DNA from: Owenia fusiformis
Taxonomy: Eukaryota; Annelida; Polychaeta; Sabellida; Oweniidae
NCBI GenBank assembly: GCA_903813345.2
Contig: CAIIXF020000006.1
Location: 29,395,936 to 29,459,935 of the forward strand
Reading direction: 5' to 3'
DNA length: 64,000 nt
The position numbers and the translations under genes are program-made. Of the stretch, positions 187 through 63,813 are shown in pieces. The notes beneath the pieces are model-generated. The model saw nothing but the letters and a program-made list of their open reading frames with translations. It did not search any database and was not told the origin of the DNA. Within the stretch, counting starts at the first letter, position 1. Every line of letters starts with the position of its first letter.

Positions 187-422
187 GCTCTAAACCATCA
201 GATTTACAAAATGGCTACTCTGATACTCTTTCGTCCTCAGGGTCATCCTACTCTAAACCGTCCAATAGCAAGACTCAGGCAGCTAATGTTGCGACACTAA
301 TTGAGGAAGTTAGAGCCGTCGTTGAGAATGTTCACGATCCGTCATGGACATTTACACACTTACCAACAGACACGCAGACATTCATGCGTGATTGGATCAA
401 CATGGCGACCAATGGGAATAAG
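187..422 (+). CDS. liprin-beta: liprin-beta exon: N-terminal region before the coiled coil
   Basis: 236 nt. It enters with two bases of a split codon and leaves in phase 0. Acceptor TTTCAG at 181-186, donor AAG|GTAAGA after 422. It encodes a Ser/Asn-rich stretch (SKPSDLQNGYSDTLSSSGSS), then ATLIEEVRAVVENVHDPSW and DTQTFMRDWINMATNGNK. This matches the vertebrate region ending in a TLVEWLQSQMTNG-type motif just before the coiled coil. The exon joins 21733 in phase, giving NGNK-TIGTTP. No start codon is claimed; the upstream exons are outside the window. Confidence 0.85.
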
Positions 423-1148
423 GTAAGATTTTAACATTATGTAAAAGTGTGGATAAGTGAGTTGCAGAATCTCAGTTTTCTTGTCTTTTTATCGGGGCAT
501 TTCCAGATGATTTGATATTTTCAGTGATGTTTCTTAGAATGAATATCCAATACCGGTTAAGTGTTCAGACATGCTAGGTAAATTTTAAAAGTGGCCCATT
601 TTGATTTTCGCATTCCAGGGTTCTAACCAGGAAACCTTTAGACCCCAGATTTTTAGCGGTATTGTGACTACTTTTTTCGCAGTATCGCGATTACTTCTCC
701 CTCATGTGAGATCAGAGATATCCTATTAGTATACTTTTCAACATACTTCTTAGGATTATCTTGCTATTTTAATCCCAATATTTATTTCTAAAGGGTTTCT
801 GACTTCCTATTCCTTGTTTGTATGTAGTTTTATGTATTTTCTCAAGAGTTTTACCGCAAATAATGTGACAAAAATGTAAAATTAGACTCCGGAAAAAACA
901 CTTTAGACTCTGGAAAAGCTATTAAACTCTGGAGCAAGAGGGTTTTAAGACATTAGACTCGGGAGAATCTCCGGAGTCTAAAAGCCTGTGAGAACCCTGC
1001 ATTCTATATTATTTGCTGTACGCCTTGTTATGTCACCACCACCACAAGTGGTAACATATTGTTATAGGACAGATCCAGGGCTTGGTTCAAGACATTAGTT
1101 ATTTTGAGAGGCTGCATCATCTGAAACAAAATCTGTAATTAATTATTA

Positions 1149-1240
1149 CAGTAAAACCTGTCGAAAGTGAAAACTATTTGAACATAAACTAAGAGTGTTC
1201 ATATGGACAGGTTTCACATTTCAGGTTTTTTCAAGATGCA
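1149..1240 (+). mobile_element. pogo/Tigger-like MITE fragment
   Basis: Begins with the CAGTAAAACCTGT terminus preceded by TA and continues with the family's GTGTTCA-type interior. No matching right terminus is recognised, so it is a fragment of the family best seen at 21972-22244. Confidence 0.45.
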
Positions 1241-1784
1241 GAACATCAAAAAACAGAATTGAAAAAGTGTTTACAATTGAAAGTTAAAATCAAAGGGTGT
1301 TCATTTTCATAGATTTAAATTATGCCCAATAATATCCCAAATAAAAGTGGAATGCTGTTGGCAATTTATTAAAAATGAGATATTTGCCATGTTGTTTTGT
1401 TTGATGAAGAATTTGAAATATTCTGCATGTATTTATTCAAGTAGTTCTATAGAGAAATCTGATATAGGGTAGACTCAAGGTTAAAGTATATATTAACATT
1501 GTACAAGTGCAGTGTTTATTGTTGTTTCTAAAATAAGGAATTGTATAAGAGGTTTGGAAGTGTTTTTGTATCCTTCTGATTTCTTACAGAACAGATTCTA
1601 CTTTAACACTCAAGTGATCAAGATATAAAATAGAAATCCAAGAAGTCAGTGGAATAGGTTAACCTGAATCCATATCAGTTCACTGCACTGCCCTCTGACT
1701 ATTTTGTGCACTTAAATCCTAATGCTCTTAAATGGATCTTTTGTGGCCTTTATAGGGACCCAGGGGTAGACCTAAAAATCAAGA

Positions 1785-3690
1785 GGGGGGGGGGGGGGGG
1801 GGGTGAAAAAATATTTTGGGCCCCAATTTGAAAATTTTGGCCAAATTTCTTATAAATAGCCCCAATATTAAAAAGTAATGCCCAGTATTGCCAGTTTTTC
1901 AGCCTAACTTTTGAGGGAACTACCAAAGGAGGGACTAGATATGAAAGACATTAAATGCGTGTAGTGTTGCAATTTTCAGACTGTTTTGATTTTATTCTAG
2001 CTTCACAAGTCATTTTGACTCCCCACTACATACCTACCCACACCTACCCACAAAGTCCCACACCTTCCTTACATTTAACAGATAGGGTTCAGGAGGGGCA
2101 GAGATTTGAAGCAAAACTATTTTGATTGAAATTTTGTAAGTAACTTTGAAAAAACACTTAGCGCTGAAAAATAATCTAATAACAAACTGATGAAGCTCTC
2201 TTATAAGAAGCCAAGTCAATTGAATGCAAAAGTTACTGGGAAAACATAAACACTTGAATCTTGTTAAGATCCTCTGATGCTTCAAAGATATAATGTTAGC
2301 CTGTAAAACTTTCTCTGAGGTAAAAGATACAGAGAGCCACTGGGGTTATCTCAAGAGAGTGATAATGGAGCCATCTACAGACTAACATAATGTAGTTCTT
2401 TGAAATATACAGCTACCATTGGATGACCTCAACTATAATATATAACATCAGATTCATCACCATCATCATCAAATACACTCCCATCAATAAGTTTGACAAC
2501 TGCAAGTTTTCATATATCCTTCAATTTTTACTTCACAACATGCCTCACTATCAGTTATGGACTTGATACTACCATATACGAAAAAAGATATTAAGATGAT
2601 CTGAATGTAGAGCACAAGCTGCTTTTCATCTCATTCTACATCAATAGATGTCATGTTAGTGGTATTTCTTTTAAATTCGAAGTAGCTTCACTAAGAGAGC
2701 TCCTATGGGGGAGGGGCCGAAAAAAGATTTTGGGCTCCAATTTGAAAATTTGGACCAACTTTCTTGAAAATAGGCCCAATATTAAAAAATAATGCCTAGT
2801 ATTGACAGTTTTTCAGCCTCATTTTTGAGGGAACTACCAAAGGAGGGACTAGATATGAAAGACATTAAATGCGTGTAGTGTTGCAATTTTCAGACTGTTT
2901 TGATTTTATTCTAGCTTCACAAGTCATTTTGACTCCCCACTACATACCTACCCACACCTACCCACAAAGTCCCACACCTTCCTTACATTTAACAGATAGG
3001 GTTTCGGAGGGGCAGAGATTTGAAGCAAAACTATTTTGATTGAAATCTTGTAAGTAACTTTGAAAAACCCTTAGCGCTGAAAAAAGTCTAAAAGCAAACT
3101 GATGAAGCTCTCTCATAAGAAGCCAAGTCAATCAAATGCAAAAGTTACTGGGAAAACATAAACACTTGAATCTTGTTAAGATCCTCTGATGCTTCAAAGA
3201 TATAATGTTAGCCTGTATAACTTTCTCTGAGGTAAAAGATACAGAGAGCCACTGAGGTTATCTCAAGAGAGTGATAATGGAGCCATCTACAGACTAACAT
3301 AATGTAGTTCTTTGAAATATACAGCTACAATTGGATGACCTCAACTATAATATATAACTTCAGATTCATCACCATCATCAAGGCCACGTACACTCCCATC
3401 GATAAGTTTGGCAACTAGAAGTTTTCATTGGAAGTTTTCATATATCCCTCAATTTTTACTCTATAACCGCAGTGTTATTTGCATTAGTCTTAGTCTTACT
3501 TACTTGCAGTCATGCAGTCTTCCGTTGTGGGCTTGATACTACCATATACAAAAAATACAGATATTTAAATGAACTGAATGTAGAGCACAAACTGCTTTTC
3601 ATTTCATTCTTCATAAATAGATGTCATGTTAGTTGTATTTCTTTTAAATTCGAAGTAGCTTCACAAAGAGAGCTCCTATCACGAGGCCCA
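1785..3690 (+). repeat. direct tandem duplication, unit about 0.92-0.97 kb
   Basis: About 1796-2705 is repeated at about 2710-3685. The block containing GGGAACTACCAAAGGAGGGA recurs 914 bp later, and the block containing AGATGTCATGTTAGT recurs about 970 bp later. The copies differ by scattered substitutions and small indels. The first copy is preceded by a long G-run. No coding capacity is evident; the short ORFs inside are incidental. Confidence 0.8.
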
Positions 3691-28092: not shown

Positions 28093-29181
28093 ATGTTGAT
28101 AATGATACCAAGATTGTTGCTGGGGTTATCACTTTTGAGTTACATGTTGACTGGGGTGTATACAGATGTCATAGCAACATTCTCAAATGCTCCAGGCGCC
28201 CAGAGATTCAAAGTGAACACAGATGCTCTGATACAATGTGAAGTTGAGGGTGATCCTACCCCAGGGAAAACATACGTTTATGAGGGATATAAACTGAATT
28301 CTGGGTCAAAATATAACATTCAAGAGAATGGATTGTTAGTGAAGAATATTCAAGCTCGTGACGCTGGAGTTTACACATGTAACATGACGCAGGTGCAGGA
28401 TGGGAAAACCCAGTATTATCTGCGATATATTAATGTTAAGGTTATCATCATGGAGTGTGATTTCAACATAGATTTCTGTGGGTTTGATGATAATAAGATG
28501 CCAGGAGTTGCACACTGGAGGAGACATACTGGGTCTACGCCTACTTTGAGAACTGGGCCCTCGGGTGACCTTAGTCATTCTGGTGGGTATTATATCTACC
28601 TTGAATCAGATGATGTTAAACCGAATGGTGAAGTCGTACTCCGATCCCCAGAATTAGCCGAAAATGTTCGACGTGAGAAAATTGATATTGAGTTTAATTA
28701 CAACATGTATGGTGCAACTATGGGGTCCTTGGTAATCTATGGGGTCTTACCAGATGAAAGTCGAGAACGGATCTGGAGTACACAAGGCAATCTACTTCAA
28801 GACTGGAGGAAAAAAGAATTGTGTGGATTAACACTGCAACAATATCGATACATTGAGTTTGTAGGCAAACGAGGCGAGGGATTAGAGTCAGATGCTGCTG
28901 TGGATAATATTTTGATAATGACGACACGGCCATTGATAGCTGAACCTGTGCCAACTACAACCTCCACCAAGGCTGTTCCAACTACTAAACCCACTCCCTC
29001 AGTAAGTGATCCGAATGTCTCTAGTACAAGCGTTGCTATTGAGAGGAATACCACAGCCAAGCCTACGTCACCTTCTACATCTGGGGCATCATTACATCTA
29101 TGTGGTAAATATACGAGCCTGGCTGTGGCAGGAACTTTAGCACTACTGCTCAGTGCTCAGTACTCTGTGCGGCTTAGATGA
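28093..29181 (+). CDS. secreted Ig + MAM domain protein, probably GPI-anchored
   Basis: 362 residues in one exon. An in-frame TGA lies at 28078-28080; the first ATG is 28093 (the preceding GTG is not an animal start). Residues 1-24 are a signal peptide (LLLGLSLLSYMLTG). About 28-118 is an I-set-like Ig domain with Cys49 and DAGVYTC at 90-96 (Cys96), but the usual core Trp is replaced (KTYVYEG). About 122-275 is a MAM domain: CDFNIDFCGF, TGPSGDLSHSGGYYIYLES, FNYNMYGATMGSLVI, then DNILI. 284-330 is a Thr/Ser/Pro stalk. 338-358 is hydrophobic with a four-to-five-residue tail, typical of a GPI signal. It resembles a shortened MDGA-like adhesion protein on the cell surface. It is nested same-strand in a liprin-beta intron. 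Confidence 0.9.
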   Translation: MLIMIPRLLLGLSLLSYMLTGVYTDVIATFSNAPGAQRFKVNTDALIQCEVEGDPTPGKTYVYEGYKLNSGSKYNIQENGLLVKNIQARDAGVYTCNMTQVQDGKTQYYLRYINVKVIIMECDFNIDFCGFDDNKMPGVAHWRRHTGSTPTLRTGPSGDLSHSGGYYIYLESDDVKPNGEVVLRSPELAENVRREKIDIEFNYNMYGATMGSLVIYGVLPDESRERIWSTQGNLLQDWRKKELCGLTLQQYRYIEFVGKRGEGLESDAAVDNILIMTTRPLIAEPVPTTTSTKAVPTTKPTPSVSDPNVSSTSVAIERNTTAKPTSPSTSGASLHLCGKYTSLAVAGTLALLLSAQYSVRLR

Positions 29182-52520: not shown

Positions 52521-53280
52521 GTAATATTGCATTGGGATAGAAGTGTCCTTTAATATTGCATTGGGATAGAAGTTTCCTTTAATATTGCATTGGGATAGAA
52601 GTTTCCTTTAATATTGCATTGGGATAGAAGTGTCCTTTAATATTGCATTGAGATAGAAGTTTCCTTTAATATTACATTGGGATAGAAGTTTCCTTTAATA
52701 TTGCATTGAGATAGAAGTTTCCTTTAATATTGCATTGGGATAGAAGTGTCCTTTAATATTGCATTGGGATAGAAGTGTCCTTTAATATTGTATTGGGATA
52801 GAAGTGTCCTTTAATATTGCATTGGGATAGAAGTTTCCTTTAATATTGCATTGGGATAGAAGTGTCCTTTAATATTGCATTGGGATAGAAGTGTCCTTTA
52901 ATATTGCATTGGGATAGAAGTGTCCTTTAATATTGCATTGGGATAGAAGTTTCCTTTAATATTGCATTGGGATAGAAGTGTCCTTTAATATTGCATTGGG
53001 ATAGAAGTGTCCTTTAATATTGCATTGGGATAGAAGTGTCCTTTAATATTGCATTGGGATAGAAGTGTCCTTTAATATTGCATTGGGATAGTAGTGTCCT
53101 TTAATATTGCATTGGGATAGAAGTGTCCTTTAATATTGCATTGGGATAGAAGTGTCCTTTAATATTGCATTGGGATAGAAGTTTCCTTTAATATTGCATT
53201 GAGATAGAAGTGTCCTTTAATATTGCATTGGGATAGAAGTTTCCTTTAATATTGCATTGGGATAGAAGTGTCCTTTAATA
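52521..53280 (+). repeat. 29-bp minisatellite, about 26 units
   Basis: Unit TTTAATATTGCATTGGGATA plus GAAGTGTCC, with GTG/GTT and GGG/GAG variants, ending in a run of A. It fills much of a 1.7-kb intron. The ORF after it is incidental. Confidence 0.97.
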
Positions 53281-53519
53281 AAAAAAAAACTTGCAATAAA
53301 CTGAGGGGTATTTCCAGTAATATAAAAATGCCTGTCTCGATCTCAATCACCCATGGGATCTCATATGGATTATTGGGAATTTGTGGTGTACTTTTGGATA
53401 TGACCATTAGAAATGTTGAATTAATAGACTGTGAATATGTTACATCATCCTGGGCTCTAGACTAAACAATCCAACTGTATATTTACTCAGTAATTAGCAT
53501 CAATGAACCTAATGAGCAT

Positions 53520-53665
53520 TTAATTATTTTTATAAACACAGTTATGTTATGAACTTAAAGGCACTCATTATAATTATCTCTATAAACACAAGTATGTGAC
53601 GAACTTAAAGGCACTCATTATAATTATCTGTATTTAATACAAGTATGTAATGAACTTAAAGGCAC
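53520..53665 (+). repeat. tandem repeat, three units of about 50 bp
   Basis: Units share AACTTAAAGGCACTCATTAT and AATTATCTCTATAAACACAA. It lies about 140 bp before the next exon. Confidence 0.8.
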
Positions 53666-54240: not shown

Positions 54241-54329
54241 ACTCATTCCCAGATGAAGACACTAGTGACGGCCCAAGTCCCAAAACTTCTGTATCATCCA
54301 TGGAGGGAATAAAAGCCTCCTCACAAAAG
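54241..54329 (+). CDS. liprin-beta: liprin-beta exon: Ser-rich linker
   Basis: 89 nt, enters with two bases, leaves in phase 0. Acceptor TTTTAG, donor AAG|GTAATT. It encodes DSFPDEDTSDGPSPKTSVSS, then MEGIKASSQK, acidic and Ser/Pro-rich, in the disordered linker where liprin-betas vary. Supported by splice sites and phase more than by sequence. Confidence 0.82.
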
Positions 54330-54749
54330 GTAATTGATTAAATATCTAAATATCTACAAGTATAGCCTTTGTATTTTGATTTTATATCCTGATCTCTAAG
54401 CTTTTATTGTAGTTTGATATACAAATGTTTTAATGATATAGAGCTTTATATGTCACTCTTTTCTGATCAGCTTTCTTTCATATTGTAACTGCTTAGAATA
54501 CAGGGTGATCACTAGATTAATTATGAGTTGACATGTACTTTGTATCACTCTGTACTTTCATTCAAGTCAAATTCTATTATGATGAAACGGTATCTGGTCA
54601 ACTCAGGCCCTAGTTACCCCTTGTCAACTTGGACCCTAGTCAACTTGGACCCAGTTATATTCAAAATAGATCAGGCATTTGCTATTTAAGAGGTAAAAGC
54701 AGTTAAATTGCTAAACATTAAGAATTGGAATATTTTAGATTTAATTGAA

Positions 54750-54755
54750 TTTATT
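54750..54755 (-). terminator. possible poly(A) signal of the antisense gene
   Basis: AATAAA on the minus strand, about 450 bp past the stop codon and inside the proposed TIRs. Other sites are possible. Confidence 0.3.
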
Positions 54756-54892
54756 AATGTAATCTTTAAATATTGCTGTTTGTGTCAAATGATTATTTCA
54801 TTTGTGAAGAATGATGATTTTTTAGCATTTAAATATAATATTTCCAATTTTTTGCATGGACAACATGCAGCATCTAGTTTTTAAGTTTATAA

Positions 54893-55105
54893 TAGGCGAG
54901 TCATAGGCATAGCACTCGATACGCCTGGTATGCACGGGCATACCAGATTGTTGCAAATACACTCCAAATACAACCAAACTTCAAAATTTTCCGAGGGAGA
55001 ACCCAGACTCTTAGACCCCCCTGAACGCTCGTTTTTTGCTTCGCTCAACTTGTATTTCTGTTATGGCTAATACTCCTAAAAATAGCGCTACGCCCTTGCG
55101 AGTTG
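54893..55105 (-). repeat. CG-richer dispersed-type insert 3' of the antisense gene
   Basis: About 210 bp between GGCGAGTCATAGGCATAGCA and CTACGCCCTTGCGAGTTG, whose ends are weakly complementary. Its composition differs from its neighbours. It contains GGTATGCACGGGCATACC, a small palindrome. Possibly a nested MITE; no second copy in this window. Confidence 0.4.
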
Positions 55106-55208
55106 TAATATTAAGAGTTGAATGTTATTCTCCATGTTAACAAAAAACCTCAAAGAATGAGAAACCTCAAACAATGTGTCTCAATTGTATTGTTTCAATA
55201 AACATATC

Positions 55209-57632
55209 TCATGGGAAATACATGTACATGTATATCTTCAATCTAGGTAATTCTTTTGACAAAAAAAAATAAAAAAATTCCTTTGACAATTTTTTCTCAA
55301 AATATTGTGCCTCCTTCACCTTCCCCAATGCATAGTAGCAGGTTATCATTCTTTTCAAAACATCTTTGTAATTCTGATGAGACTCTCCAAACACTTCAAC
55401 ATAAACAGACCTTGCCTTTATAAGGCAATCCAGTGCTTCCTCATACTCTTTGCTGTCGATGAGAGCAGCAGAGTAGTAATAATACATGTTAGCATTACCT
55501 GTATCTGTTTCCGTACCAGGCTCACACTGAGGAAGCATCTGGATGATCTTCCTACAACATTGTTTCAGGCTGTCATATTCCTTGTAGCTGAATAGAAATT
55601 CAGCCTTTGATATCATACAATGCCAGATGACACTAATACTAGCAGGATTTGATTCAGCCAATGCTATGGCATCATCTATATATTTCAGAGCCTCTGACTT
55701 ATTACCAAGATCATAGTGAGAGCTAGCTATATTGTGCAAATGGTATGTTTTATCATACTTAGTTTGGAATTGATCTGAATGCACAGCATCAAGTAAGACA
55801 TCAAGTCTAGCCTGATGGTCACCGTTCAAGGAATGACAGAATTGTACTTTACCAATTACATTTGTCTTGGTGACAGGGTATTTGTGTTGGTGCCATGATG
55901 TTTTTACTGATGCAAACATCGCATCAGGATCATCTATGACATCACCTGACTCTACTTTTGTCAACATTTTCACTCTCAGAATGCAAAGTTTGCAGTCGCA
56001 AAACAGAAACACTGATTTCATGAACTGTGGATTCATGTCAGTTTGATTTGTCAATTGATCTGTAATAGATTCTGATGTGCTGATGTATCTCAGCAGATAA
56101 TGCTGCATGAGTTTGGGGAAGGGAATGGTAAGATTTTCTCTTGAGACTTTGTTTAGTGTGACAAGACTAACTGGTAATTCAGATGATTGAAATTGTTGCC
56201 AAACTTGGATGCTATCATGTTGTTGATTTTTAAAACAATATGTAAACAAGCGGATCCCTATGACAACATTGATCATGAACAGTAAGTGGGAACACATTTC
56301 TTGGCTCAATTCTTTGCTTAATTCTTCAATGATTTCCCATGGAGAGGATTTATTGATCATATAGAGATCCTTCAGGTTGTTTATTAAGATGGATGGGAAT
56401 CTATAGTAATCTTTTTTTGCATGTTTACTAAAGAGGTCTTCATTGGACCAACCAGCATAAGCATACTTCATACAATCTTCTATGGTGCGTTCAAGACAAA
56501 CACTGGACAAAGCTTGCTTATCCTCCTTTGAACGCACAAGGGCCAACTGGGATTCAAACTCTTTGAATAGCTCCTCATCACCCATGATATATGTTGATGT
56601 AGAGATGATTGTTGCAAGGTGGTAACCATGTTTCTTGTCTGCCTCAGTTGTGCTGAGTGTTGCCATATAGATAGGGGTCCCTATTAGACTCAGTGGGTCT
56701 TTTGTCACTGTCTTTTTGTGGCCAGGGGGTATCTTAGCAGCCCATGGCATGTTTCCATCTAGCTTAAAGCCACTGGGGGTAACATCGTCAAAAAAGTCAT
56801 TATCATCATTTTGTTGATAGAAGTTGTTCAAGCTTGGAATGCCAACAGCAGGAAGGGGAGTCTCACCAAAGTTGAGTACTTGGATTTGGAAGTAAAAGTG
56901 CAAGTCCAGGAAATATTCATTGAACCTGTTACTTTCCGTCAAAAATAAATACTCCATGTCGGAGTATGGAGTTGTTTCTCCTCTGGCCAGGGAGCCTAGT
57001 CCAACCATTGTGAATCTACATGGCGGAGGCCCACACATAGATATACACTGTTCCATTATCTCAGCACTGAATTCTTTGATAAACTTTGTATTATTTTGAC
57101 AAATCAATCTCGTTAAATCATTTATTTTTAGGTTGTAGTGGTTTCCTATTCCTTCTTCAGGTTTTGGACAGGCTTTCCAGACTTCCATTAGTTTTTCAAC
57201 TTCTCCCTTCAGGCAACATCGATAACTAGTTAGTTCTTCCTTCTTGGTCTTGCCAATTTCTATTTTTGTGAGTTTTGATGTAGCTTGACTTGTATCAGAT
57301 TGTCTAAGAATATTCTTCAAGTACAACATCTCAACTTCATTACAGAGGGGAGGTATCTTCTTTTGGTACTGACTGACATTAGATCCATCCTCTGCTGCAG
57401 CATTCAGAAAGGCACTGGCGCTATTATACAGGGCCACAGCATTTACATAGTGTTCTCTATCAGTTGATCCCTTCACACATCTTGCTTTGTACATATCTCC
57501 CAGTTGGATCATCTTGATTCCTTCTTTTTCATGATCCCGGATTAAGTTCTCTGTCATTTGACATATTTCCTTTCCTATCAAGTCTTCTTCATGGGCCAAA
57601 CATTTATCTAATTCAACAGCAGCCTCCGCCAT
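55209..57632 (-). CDS. nucleotidyltransferase (GlnD/DUF294-like) + TPR protein, uncharacterised
   Basis: 807 residues, uninterrupted, ATG at 57632 in CCGCCATGG context (minus reads CCATGGCGG). About 1-135 is a helical region. 160-200 (GNHYNLKINDLTRLICQNNT) leads to GLGSLARGETTPYSDMEYLF at 211-230: GS (213-214), ten residues, then D225-x-E227, the pol-beta nucleotidyltransferase signature in the GRGE-TPYSD form of GlnD-like enzymes. D292 (GFKLDGN) could be the third carboxylate. 405-560 is helical. About 625-785 has TPR-like repeats (HNIASSHYDLGNKSEALKYI; YYYSAALIDSKEYEEALDCL; ITCYYALGKVKEAQYFEKKL). A transfer of NMP to protein or small molecule is plausible but unproven. I recall similar unnamed proteins in marine invertebrates. 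The C-terminus (SKEFFYFFLSKEL) looks disturbed by an A/T-run duplication. Confidence 0.9.
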   Translation of the reverse strand: MAEAAVELDKCLAHEEDLIGKEICQMTENLIRDHEKEGIKMIQLGDMYKARCVKGSTDREHYVNAVALYNSASAFLNAAAEDGSNVSQYQKKIPPLCNEVEMLYLKNILRQSDTSQATSKLTKIEIGKTKKEELTSYRCCLKGEVEKLMEVWKACPKPEEGIGNHYNLKINDLTRLICQNNTKFIKEFSAEIMEQCISMCGPPPCRFTMVGLGSLARGETTPYSDMEYLFLTESNRFNEYFLDLHFYFQIQVLNFGETPLPAVGIPSLNNFYQQNDDNDFFDDVTPSGFKLDGNMPWAAKIPPGHKKTVTKDPLSLIGTPIYMATLSTTEADKKHGYHLATIISTSTYIMGDEELFKEFESQLALVRSKEDKQALSSVCLERTIEDCMKYAYAGWSNEDLFSKHAKKDYYRFPSILINNLKDLYMINKSSPWEIIEELSKELSQEMCSHLLFMINVVIGIRLFTYCFKNQQHDSIQVWQQFQSSELPVSLVTLNKVSRENLTIPFPKLMQHYLLRYISTSESITDQLTNQTDMNPQFMKSVFLFCDCKLCILRVKMLTKVESGDVIDDPDAMFASVKTSWHQHKYPVTKTNVIGKVQFCHSLNGDHQARLDVLLDAVHSDQFQTKYDKTYHLHNIASSHYDLGNKSEALKYIDDAIALAESNPASISVIWHCMISKAEFLFSYKEYDSLKQCCRKIIQMLPQCEPGTETDTGNANMYYYYSAALIDSKEYEEALDCLIKARSVYVEVFGESHQNYKDVLKRMITCYYALGKVKEAQYFEKKLSKEFFYFFLSKELPRLKIYMYMYFP

Positions 57633-57651
57633 GGTTTGGTTTGTTATCTAC

Positions 57652-57894
57652 CTGATTAAACAAGAGAATCAGTAAAGGGTATTGTATATGAATAGTGAAA
57701 AATAAGCTGTACTGATTACAAAAACTTAAACATGATTTTGAAATAAGTCACATATCTTCAGACTTAACCCAGCTTCTTTGAATTACAATTAAAAAGGTTG
57801 TTTTAAATATGTTTAATAGTGGTCATTATGAAAAATATGGTGTCACATTCTGTTACTTTCTCTAAATTATGATTTAAAACATTTTACAACTTAC
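57652..57894 (-). other. probable 5' UTR intron of the antisense gene
   Basis: On the minus strand a donor TATAG|GTAAGT (GT at 57894) and an acceptor TTTAATCAG (ending 57652) bound 243 bp; the exon resumes 19 bases before the ATG. This would make the gene a normally spliced gene with an intronless CDS instead of a bare retrocopy. Confidence 0.5.
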
Positions 57895-58322
57895 CTATAC
57901 TGTGTGATGATTTATTTTGCTTTCCTTTATTCATATATTCAGCTATGTAGACAACTGTTTGAGGCTCATTTTCAAATAGACTGGTAAATCGATCTAATAA
58001 GCCAAAGTCCAACTTCTTACTTATTATCTGCACGTTTTTTTGTTTGTTCAGATTAATCAGTAAAAAATCATGACATCTGTCAGATTTCCCATAATATGCA
58101 CATTTTTGAAACCTATATCCAATAGATCATGTATTAAAGCCTATTCTTATTATATCTGCGTGTTTATAAGTATGATGTATGTTAGGAATTATCTAATTTG
58201 CTGGGGTCTGAGTTGACTAGGGTCCGAGTTAACTTGGGTCGAGTTGACTAGAAGCTGATGAAACATATATGTGGTAGTTCATGATTTTATGCTGTGTGTC
58301 ATGACCCCATACTTCCACTCAG

Positions 58323-58539: not shown

Positions 58540-58642
58540 CAATAACGTCATTTCTAAGGGCAATATAGTGAAATATTGGACCGAGGGCCAAAGGCCCAAG
58601 GTCCAATATTTCACTATATTGCTCGCAGAAATGGCGTTATTA
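58540..58642. repeat. long near-perfect hairpin
   Basis: 23-base perfect arms (58560-58582, GCAATATAGTGAAATATTGG onward, and 58600-58622) around a 17-base loop. Outer arms AATAACGTCATTTCT and AGAAATGGCGTTATT pair with one mismatch. It directly abuts the TIR element at 58645. Confidence 0.85.
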
Positions 58643-63544: not shown

Positions 63545-63813
63545 TGATATAGATATTCCCTTCGCCCGCTGGGACAATGATAAAGTTGCATTATGGGTAC
63601 ACCAAATAGGACTCAGTATGTACGTTGGTGAAGTTAAACGATGGTGCCGAAATGGAGAACAGTTATTACGTGCAACTCCTCACGATTTAGAAAAACATTT
63701 AGACATAAAAAATTATTTACATCGGAAAAAGTTGCAGTTAGCATTGCAATCAATAGGATCTGAATCGAACAAAGACAGTATGATTGGTACACTGGACCAC
63801 CACTGGGTAACAA
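63545..63813 (+). CDS. liprin-beta: liprin-beta exon: first SAM domain
   Basis: 269 nt, enters with one base, leaves with one base. Acceptor CTTCCAG, donor ACAA|GTAAGG. It encodes DIDIPFARWDNDKVALWVHQ, then IGLSMYVGEVKRWCRNGEQL, LRATPHDLEKHLDIKNYLHR and KKLQLALQSIG, a complete SAM1 (W-x5-V-x2-W start, DLEK-L-I-LHRKKL end). It ends GTLDHHWVT, where vertebrates continue RWLDDIGL into SAM2. SAM domains mediate binding between liprin-beta and liprin-alpha. The rest lies outside the window. Confidence 0.97.

Follow-up and report, generated by a model that had tools for sequence, protein, structure and literature searches.

A probable Mutator-like transposon carrying a complete nucleotidyltransferase-TPR gene within a liprin-beta intron of Owenia fusiformis

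The DNA analysed here, referred to as the window, is a stretch of 64,000 nucleotides from the Owenia fusiformis genome. Positions 54589-58256 of the window (3668 bp) are a real member of a transposon family, with ends in inverted orientation, and it is very probable (roughly 0.87) that this element is an old, single-copy, non-autonomous Pack-MULE with foldback-type termini, lying in a liprin-beta intron, whose interior has been replaced with a host gene. To judge from the shared termini, the MULE transposase of autonomous relatives would move the element in trans. About 3.4 kb of host DNA would have replaced most of the interior and brought in a whole nucleotidyltransferase (NTase)-TPR gene together with its upstream region and a probable 5'-UTR intron, likely by gap repair with template switching, either while the transposon was excising or afterwards. 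Since then, selection would probably have preserved the open frame of the gene, which is presumably expressed, and its donor would have been lost or have diverged past recognition. The features are listed in Table 1.

Table 1. Features of the element and the neighbouring liprin-beta exons (window positions)
Feature	Position	Strand	Remarks
Liprin-beta upstream exon	54241..54329	+	Ends at GT donor; by eye
Left target-site duplication	54581..54588		GATGAAAC, 8 bp; family duplications 8 bp
Left terminal inverted repeat	54589..54653	+	Terminus GGTATCTGGTCAACTC, then tandem 16-base units
Left subterminal arm	54654..54785	+	Common to the family's miniature elements; weak similarity perhaps to ~54854
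Captured non-transposon segment	54786..58191 (outer), ~54855-58143 (inner)		Without family homology; unique save for the SINE-like repeat
SINE-like dispersed repeat	54902..55098		Inside the element, 3' of the NTase gene
NTase (DUF294-like) + TPR gene	55209..57632	-	Open, 807 codons; antisense to liprin-beta
Probable 5'-UTR intron	57652..57894	-	Donor TATAG/GTAAGT, acceptor TTTAATCAG/GTAG
Right terminal inverted repeat	58192..58256	-	Terminus AGCTTCTAGTCAACTC (read inwards), tandem 16-base units; closest: L020
Right target-site duplication	58257..58264		GATGAAAC
Liprin-beta downstream exon	63552..63776	+	SAM domain (SAM_1, 6.2e-13)

Termini and target duplication of the window element

An earlier note, made from the letters of the window alone, had described inverted repeats on both sides of the antisense gene, and these are present: a 35-nt pair (54618-54652 and 58204-58238) is 83% complementary, further overlapping pairs accompany it, and paired termini are found family-wide. 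Both termini consist of a 16-base unit in tandem, repeated 2.2 times at the left end and 3.1 times at the right. Viewed in isolation, the inverted repeat is only modestly above chance (a local score of 24 against a best of 21.5 among 60 Markov shuffles); it is made certain by the family, since the same termini recur as inverted pairs elsewhere in the genome. A point against the overall reading is that the element's own two termini align over just 30 bases (26 identical), compared to 48-105 bases in 18 other elements. The two ends differ in type as in the family, with GGTATC on the left and AGCT/GGTTCC on the right, and their orientation is correct.

The right end was placed at 58256 by alignment to the family and to L020, the element with the most similar right end (AGCTCCTAG). 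With the element ending at 58256, the duplication is therefore GATGAAAC, of 8 bases, and identical 8-mers directly adjoin both ends. The 9-mer that the earlier note had seen on both sides, TGATGAAAC, is indeed there at 54580-54588 and 58256-58264, but the duplication proper is one base shorter, and the ninth matching base is, judging from the placement of the right end, a coincidence.

The left 197 bp of the element are homologous to the family's miniature elements, at up to 82-84% to members, and the subterminal arm within them matches L001 at 82% over 137 bp. The arm is unlike the family majority at 24 of 136 sites, a comparison that took in 18 of 25 elements, the remaining ones having aligned over too short a stretch. 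No family homology was found at element positions 198-3603.

The transposon family in the Owenia fusiformis genome

Thirty-two transposon loci (L001-L020 and L031-L042) were fetched from the genome, and both ends were recovered in 24 of them, giving 25 elements when the window element is counted. An exact 8-base target duplication flanks 22 of the 25, including the window element, and a 9-base duplication flanks none; the background is 83 identical pairs among 500,000 8-mer pairs drawn at random from these loci. A 9-base duplication as in Mutator-like elements, which had been proposed from the window, is thus not what this family makes. The three other counted elements have imperfect duplications (6 of 8 positions in L034 and L039, 7 of 8 in L041). 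Loci outside the count are L015, L031, L032, L033, L035 and L037, with a single outer end in the fetched stretch; L018, with degenerate ends and the left end doubled; and L036, which has both end types (302, 664) but flanks that are unlike, and with which the count would be 22 of 26. Among the 22 exact duplications, 14 have T as their second base and 14 have A as their seventh. Furthermore, L008 sits in a minisatellite, and when its flanks are joined with one duplication, the array continues without a break through the join at base 296 (extent 1-493, 76% matches); these joined flanks are an empty site.

The genome search with the terminal sequences, which the earlier note had proposed as a check, found paired matches at similar spacing with 8-base duplications; the counter-case that it named, a scattered minisatellite without pairing, is not what the genome showed. 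Pattern counts of 244 and 434 (reversed-pattern controls, 0; the first 100 places of each listed) also pick up internal tandem units and members of a sister subfamily and are not copy numbers. A further pattern gave 52 matches (reversed control, 1), with an exact match in L020 only.

The family is Mutator-like because two copies with the same ends, L009 and L010, encode an open 617-aa frame with MULE (3.6e-8) and FLYWCH (1.5e-7) domains. At least two more open transposase relatives exist besides this near-identical pair, at 55% and 50% identity. Together with the homology of the left arm to the miniature elements, this bears out the proposal of a Pack-type Mutator-like element. Elements of the hAT group combine an 8-bp duplication with a hAT transposase; membership in that group, suggested by the duplication length, was dropped, since relatives with the same ends encode the MULE/FLYWCH protein. 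The 16-base units number 10.4 and 6.6 in L010 as against the few in the window element, and the family is foldback-type, with termini of short tandem repeats that vary in number. The open transposase copies and the near-identical miniature copies L002, L013 and L019 (99.6-99.7%), all with perfect duplications, indicate that the family was recently active.

Stretches of at least 250 bp that lack homology to the core miniature copies also occur inside L005, L008, L011, L018, L034, L038 and L039, likewise inside the autonomous L009 and L010, and inside L015 and L037, where the second end was not found. Those of L038 and L039, which belong to the sister subfamily, may be that subfamily's own interior. 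In a search for other captured genes, seven ORFs of L008, L011 and L018 gave no match to Pfam.

The captured gene and the route of its arrival

The NTase-TPR coding region is one exon, and close paralogues are open across the same stretch too; the motif GSLARGETTPYSDMEY is conserved with them. Between 54000 and 59000, the only frames of at least 100 aa are the NTase frame and one overlapping frame of 102 aa, and a transposase search listed no match in this span. No solved-structure homologue was found at E 0.01. The putative 5'-UTR intron is 243 bp long, with its acceptor 19 nt before the ATG, and in seven paralogues viewed by eye an acceptor-like AG stands 13-22 nt before the ATG. On the minus strand, the left arm contains AATAAA at 54755 and ATTAAA at 54745, where the 3' end of an antisense transcript may fall. 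Because both intronic and upstream DNA lie inside the element, capture at the DNA level is indicated. The dispersed repeat on the 3' side is probably a SINE; it had 727 first-look candidates in the genome, and the 40 that were scored showed 76-81% identity. As for the surrounding gene, the intron that holds the element runs between exons near 54241 and 59754, and the downstream exon at 63552..63776 matches Liprin-beta-1 (3tad_C) at E 3.1e-23, followed by liprin-alpha-2 at 3.3e-12.

The gene has more than 50 genomic relatives, and the closest full-length one is 53% identical in amino acids among the candidates scored (56 of 114); a broken copy, L027, reaches 56% over its first 375 residues. Synonymous sites are saturated between the window gene and its relatives, with pS of 0.75-0.78 against six intact paralogues, 0.78 against L030 and, for L027, 0.81 against one half and 0.72 against the other. 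Relatives this distant demonstrate no duplication, and no donor was recognisable among the relatives in the assembly (pS at least 0.72). The parental copy is absent, lost or in a gap, and duplication from a known parent is not claimed. The composite of transposon ends and NTase gene is single copy, and neither a second composite nor an empty site for it was found in the assembly.

The earlier note had also offered transposition as a way for the NTase family to spread. This idea was abandoned: none of ten other NTase loci scanned, from the 50-odd listed, carries the family termini, eight of these having 1.1-5 kb on both sides of the frame, while for the other two (L028 and L029) the fetched stretch passes the frame on one side only. 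Among the ten, L024 gave an inverted-repeat score of 28, marginally above its shuffles at 27, and L029 held a lone match to the 16-base unit with 3 mismatches, taken as chance.

Nearly the whole interior of the element is gone and the breakpoints lie near the termini, which matches the expectation that abortive gap repair after excision leaves near-terminal breakpoints (PMC8277862), whereas most Pack-TIRs of that study, unlike this element, have small internal gaps. Capture in place, in which a miniature element was already in the intron and an NTase gene at another locus later served as template for mending a break or excision within that element, is slightly favoured, with a chance approaching even; the single composite copy and the general precedent in animals (PMC8277862) agree with it. 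On the other hand, the template normally survives such repair, yet the donor was not found, scored matches on the contig of the element itself (C6) reach 38% identity at most (56 of 114 candidates scored) and so offer no cis donor, and 3.4 kb far exceeds the median captured length of 224 bp in animal Pack-TIRs (PMC8277862).

It is also quite conceivable, if a little less so, that MULE ends at another locus first took up the gene and that the whole 3.7-kb unit then inserted into the intron, the original being lost or cut out. The perfect 8-bp duplication immediately outside both ends and the recent activity of the family speak for this course of events, and a missing donor is what cut-and-paste relocation predicts. 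However, neither a second composite nor an empty site accompanies the single copy, and single-copy Pack-TIRs of animals are ascribed mainly to in-place gap filling (PMC8277862). The gene itself may have moved along with the element, although filling in place fits these observations as well. A more far-reaching version, in which a whole functional host gene was relocated as transposon cargo, the composite is the sole home of this NTase-TPR lineage, the original locus is gone, and selection keeps the cargo while the ends decay, is less probable still; if cargo relocation were true, the Mutator element would be a vehicle of gene relocation and not a duplicator of fragments.

It is improbable that an NTase mRNA was retroposed into a miniature element already in place. 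The single coding exon would suit such an event, but close paralogues too have an open frame there, the probable 5'-UTR intron lies inside the element with an acceptor-like AG similarly spaced from the ATG in the seven paralogues viewed, and the place expected for an antisense poly(A), 54786-55208, shows by eye no T run above 6. That the gene is flanked by chance, either by a pair of unrelated miniature elements or by stray minisatellites of 16 bases, would suit an inverted repeat that alone is barely above shuffles, but is in effect refuted by the identical 8-mers outside ends of the family's two types in correct orientation, chance repeats being ruled out by a family with paired termini and target duplications.

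For the Pack-MULE as a whole, the state of the frame bears on what followed capture. In a neutral simulation of 2000 copies that considered new stops only, the NTase frame stayed open in 11% at 0.02 substitutions per site, in 0.95% at 0.05, and in none at 0.10 or more; because the frame is open although the left arm differs from the family at so many sites, selection on it is argued. The divergence of the arm may partly predate the insertion, as in an older subfamily, which makes this argument weaker, and if capture took place in situ, the gene is possibly younger than the transposon arms.

Comparison with known systems

It is already known, from Muta1 of Aedes as described in PMC5225508 and from Ssk-FB4 (PMC8277862), that animal MULEs carry gene fragments. 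In 100 reference genomes of animals, one survey counted 370 Pack-TIRs, none of which was a Pack-MULE, with a median capture of 224 bp (PMC8277862). What stands out here, and is unusual, is a whole intact 2.4-kb coding region kept open in an animal Mutator-type element. An old Pack-MULE with such a region plus upstream DNA points to an ability of animal MULEs to acquire entire genes, which can then endure as cargo. The family, which has a near-identical pair of open transposase copies as well as near-identical miniatures, offers a tractable system for whole-gene capture outside plants.

Like the Pack-MULEs of rice, the window element has Mutator-like termini, a direct target duplication (here of 8 bp, within the span of about 8-10 bp given for Pack-MULEs in PMC5225508), no transposase, and host gene sequence inside. 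It differs in that an identifiable parental copy elsewhere, also a feature of Pack-MULEs, was not found among its relatives, and in that plant Pack-MULEs are described as holding mostly gene fragments (PMC6446971), and PMC8277862 cites 305 bp as their captured length. Ssk-FB4 of Drosophila populations is likewise a protein-coding gene in a foldback element, assigned to the MULEs by its authors; it is young, multicopy and polymorphic, with its parent present and 9-10-bp duplications (PMC8277862), whereas the window element appears to be old, exists as a single copy with no parent found, and has an 8-bp duplication.

Among MULE clades, Rehavkus is described as having a PHD finger, a minisatellite before the 3' terminus, and annelid and arthropod hosts (PMC6446971). 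Here, the PHD match of L010 reaches 19.1 bits, below the Pfam cut-off of 24, and a minisatellite of 91-92 bp lies upstream of the transposase frame, not before the 3' terminus. The combination of FLYWCH and MULE domains in the L010 protein is as in the Phantom clade, some members of which have a FLYWCH zinc finger according to PMC6446971, making the family a candidate member of that clade by domain content. Tm1, a Mutator/Foldback element of root-knot nematodes, shares asymmetric motifs at its termini, which consist of tandem units of 13-15 bp, as well as a FLYWCH and MULE transposase of the Phantom type, and both miniature and autonomous members; as described, it differs in its 9-bp duplications and in the Cg-1 transcript inside it, which is without obvious coding potential (PMC3169594).

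Muta1 of Aedes aegypti resembles the family as an animal MULE with foldback-type termini, short tandem subterminal repeats, and derivatives that contain host genes, about 20% of derivatives being reported to carry host gene sequence; its excision has been measured in laboratory yeast. The captured fragment described as an example measures 276 bp and shares 97.5% identity with its source, as opposed to the whole 807-codon open gene in the window, whose source was not found (PMC5225508). Since the derivatives of this mosquito foldback MULE, on the account given there, contain host gene fragments, gene capture by MULEs with this architecture does happen in animals.

A Mutator-like transposon family with foldback termini

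Genome searches with each end of the window element across the 498-Mb assembly (525 contigs; window at G000:C6:29395936-29459935) returned 54 and 97 matches, with 40 candidates scored for each end, and many were inverted pairs approximately 0.5-5 kb apart. Twenty loci were sampled first and 12 more afterwards, and both ends were present in 24 of these 32 transposon loci. The family's ends come in two types, GGTATCTGGTCAACTC and GGTTCCTAGTCAACTC, and tandem units follow both; a sister subfamily with ends GGTAACTGG.../GCTTCCTAG... is also present. An exact 8-bp duplication flanked 22 of 25 elements (the 24 loci and the window element), and a 9-bp duplication flanked none; the background was 83 matches per 500,000 random placements for 8 bp. 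L036, a locus with both end types and unlike flanks, was excluded from this count. Within the sister subfamily, the duplication is perfect at L038 and matches at 6 of 8 positions at L039. At L008, which lies within a minisatellite, removal of the element and one duplication left the array continuous across the junction. These family loci are transposons; the earlier note had looked to paired ends elsewhere in the genome as support for a transposon, and such pairs, with 8-bp duplications, were found. One locus, L042, looks as if a terminus were turning into satellite.

Target duplications in the family are weakly biased toward a palindrome: 14 of 22 have T at position 2, and 14 of 22 have A at position 7. 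Such a duplication resembles that of hAT elements in look, although the transposase here is MULE-type. Family ends together with a 617-aa open frame were found at L009 (3.9 kb) and L010 (4.9 kb), and Pfam detected MULE (3.6e-8) and FLYWCH (1.5e-7) domains in the frame, with a PHD finger below the cut-off. Besides these two copies, which are nearly identical, the genome contains open relatives of the transposase at 55% and 50% identity and numerous fragments. With its foldback termini, the family is of the Mutator-like class, and the earlier assignment to this class is borne out by relatives with the same ends that encode the MULE and FLYWCH protein.

The element in the liprin-beta intron

The inverted repeats described around the nucleotidyltransferase-TPR (NTase-TPR) gene are real and are built of a 16-base tandem unit; judged alone, the pair scored 24, barely above the 21.5 obtained in shuffles. 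The flanking TGATGAAAC was found outside both ends as described, but its reading as a 9-base duplication gave way in the family alignment to GATGAAAC. The right end, AGCTTCTAG, is closest to that of the miniature copy L020, AGCTCCTAG, and the right arm is recognizable over about 65-110 bp. No homology to the transposon family was found in the DNA between the two arms, and this interior is unique in the genome except for one SINE-like repeat. In the same region as liprin-beta, the host gene, the open frame at 28096 appears to be a gene of one exon that encodes a surface or secreted protein.

Positions of the window element, its surroundings and related loci (window coordinates unless a contig or locus is named)
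Feature	Position	Description
Open frame	28096-29175 (+)	360 codons; Ig I-set and MAM domains (Pfam 1.6e-9, 3.3e-20)
Tandem array	53000-53280	29-bp unit x 9.7; upstream of exon at 54241
Tandem array	53517-53665	50-bp unit x 3.0; upstream of exon at 54241
Liprin-beta exon	54241-54329	precedes the intron holding the element (by eye)
Window element	54589-58256	3668 bp; limits with family as guide
Left arm	left end to 54785	homologous to miniature elements, up to 82-84%
SINE-like repeat	54902-55098	
GTAAGT donor	57894	upstream of cargo ATG
Inverted repeat	58541-58641	just outside element; 49 nt, 3-nt gap, 88% complementary; possibly hairpin of another repeat
Liprin-beta exon	63552-63776	solved structures: Liprin-beta-1 E 3.1e-23, then liprin-alpha-2 3.3e-12
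Minisatellite, 91-92 bp	L009 884-1389; L010 1908-2379	upstream of transposase frame
L042	G000:C2:32323300-32325100	mostly long one-sided array of 16-base terminal unit; 8-bp duplication TTAAGAGA intact
NTase-TPR paralogue clusters	G000 C6:36.50-36.66 Mb; C8:34.27-34.44 Mb; C7:38.16-38.25 Mb	several clusters; long frames (about 850-2200 aa) free of interruptions

The cargo gene and its relatives

The cargo, an open gene of 807 codons, lies on the minus strand; it encodes a DUF294-type nucleotidyltransferase domain and C-terminal TPRs, and shares a conserved motif, GSLARGETTPYSDMEY, with its paralogues. Its family is large (at least 57 matches, with 56 of 114 candidates scored), and the paralogue clusters are a large expansion of NTase-TPR genes in one genome. 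The closest full-length relative is 53% identical, and the broken copy L027 is 56% identical over 375 residues. Synonymous sites showed saturation in all these comparisons: against six intact paralogues, pS was 0.75-0.78 and pN was 0.31-0.37; against L027 and a further paralogue, L030, pS was 0.72-0.81. A splice acceptor and the GTAAGT donor lie upstream of the cargo ATG, which suggests that the gene brought intronic and probably also promoter DNA with it; acceptor-like sites were also seen 13-22 nt 5' of the ATG in the seven paralogues viewed.

When 18 arms were compared, the window left arm differed from the family majority at 24 of 136 sites. L020 was the next most divergent miniature copy (20/141), the other miniature copies showed 0-11 differences, and the arms of the autonomous L009 and L010 and of L039 were more distant. 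In a neutral simulation counting new stops only, frames stayed open in 11% of cases when substitutions per site were set to 0.02 and in 0.95% when they were set to 0.05; at 0.10 or above, 0 of 2000 did. That the frame is open despite this arm divergence suggests selection on the cargo gene, provided that the divergence arose after capture.

The earlier note had further proposed that the transposon spread the gene family, and this proposal is unsupported: termini were present in the fetched stretch at 0 of 10 other NTase loci scanned, of which eight had 1.1-5 kb of flank at either end of the frame and L028 and L029 had flank at one end only. At one of the ten, L024, the inverted-repeat score was marginally above shuffles (28 vs 27).

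Routes of capture and comparison with known elements

Gap repair in place, inside a resident miniature element, is our leading but tentative reading (probability about 0.45). The element is a composite single copy with breakpoints near the termini, and single-copy animal Pack-TIRs were concluded, in one survey, to arise mainly by gap filling; however, most cases described there have small internal gaps and donors nearby (PMC8277862). Capture elsewhere, followed by transposition into the liprin-beta intron as cargo, is almost as probable and is favored by the clean duplication, the recent activity of the family and the missing donor. No donor is visible in the assembly, which has gaps, and no empty site for the composite was found in it.

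The same survey, covering 100 animals, gives 370 Pack-TIRs, a median captured length of 224 bp and 'no Pack-MULE' in reference genomes, and describes Ssk-FB4 of fly populations as a Pack-MULE, with its 3' terminus lost in one copy (PMC8277862). Gene fragments are described in a C. elegans Harbinger element (PMC2572040). Pack-MULE-like derivatives, about 20% of derivative elements, are described for Muta1, a foldback MULE of Aedes aegypti, one with a 276-bp kinase-gene fragment (PMC5225508), and a possible 15-kb pack-MULE is described in a sea anemone (PMC9842752). Animal Pack-MULEs are therefore already known; apart from Ssk-FB4, none holding a whole intact gene was recognized in the open-access literature searched. 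The window element is unusual for its size, its completeness and the absence of a parent, and the build of its family is like that described for Tm1 of nematodes (PMC3169594) and Muta1 of Aedes (PMC5225508).
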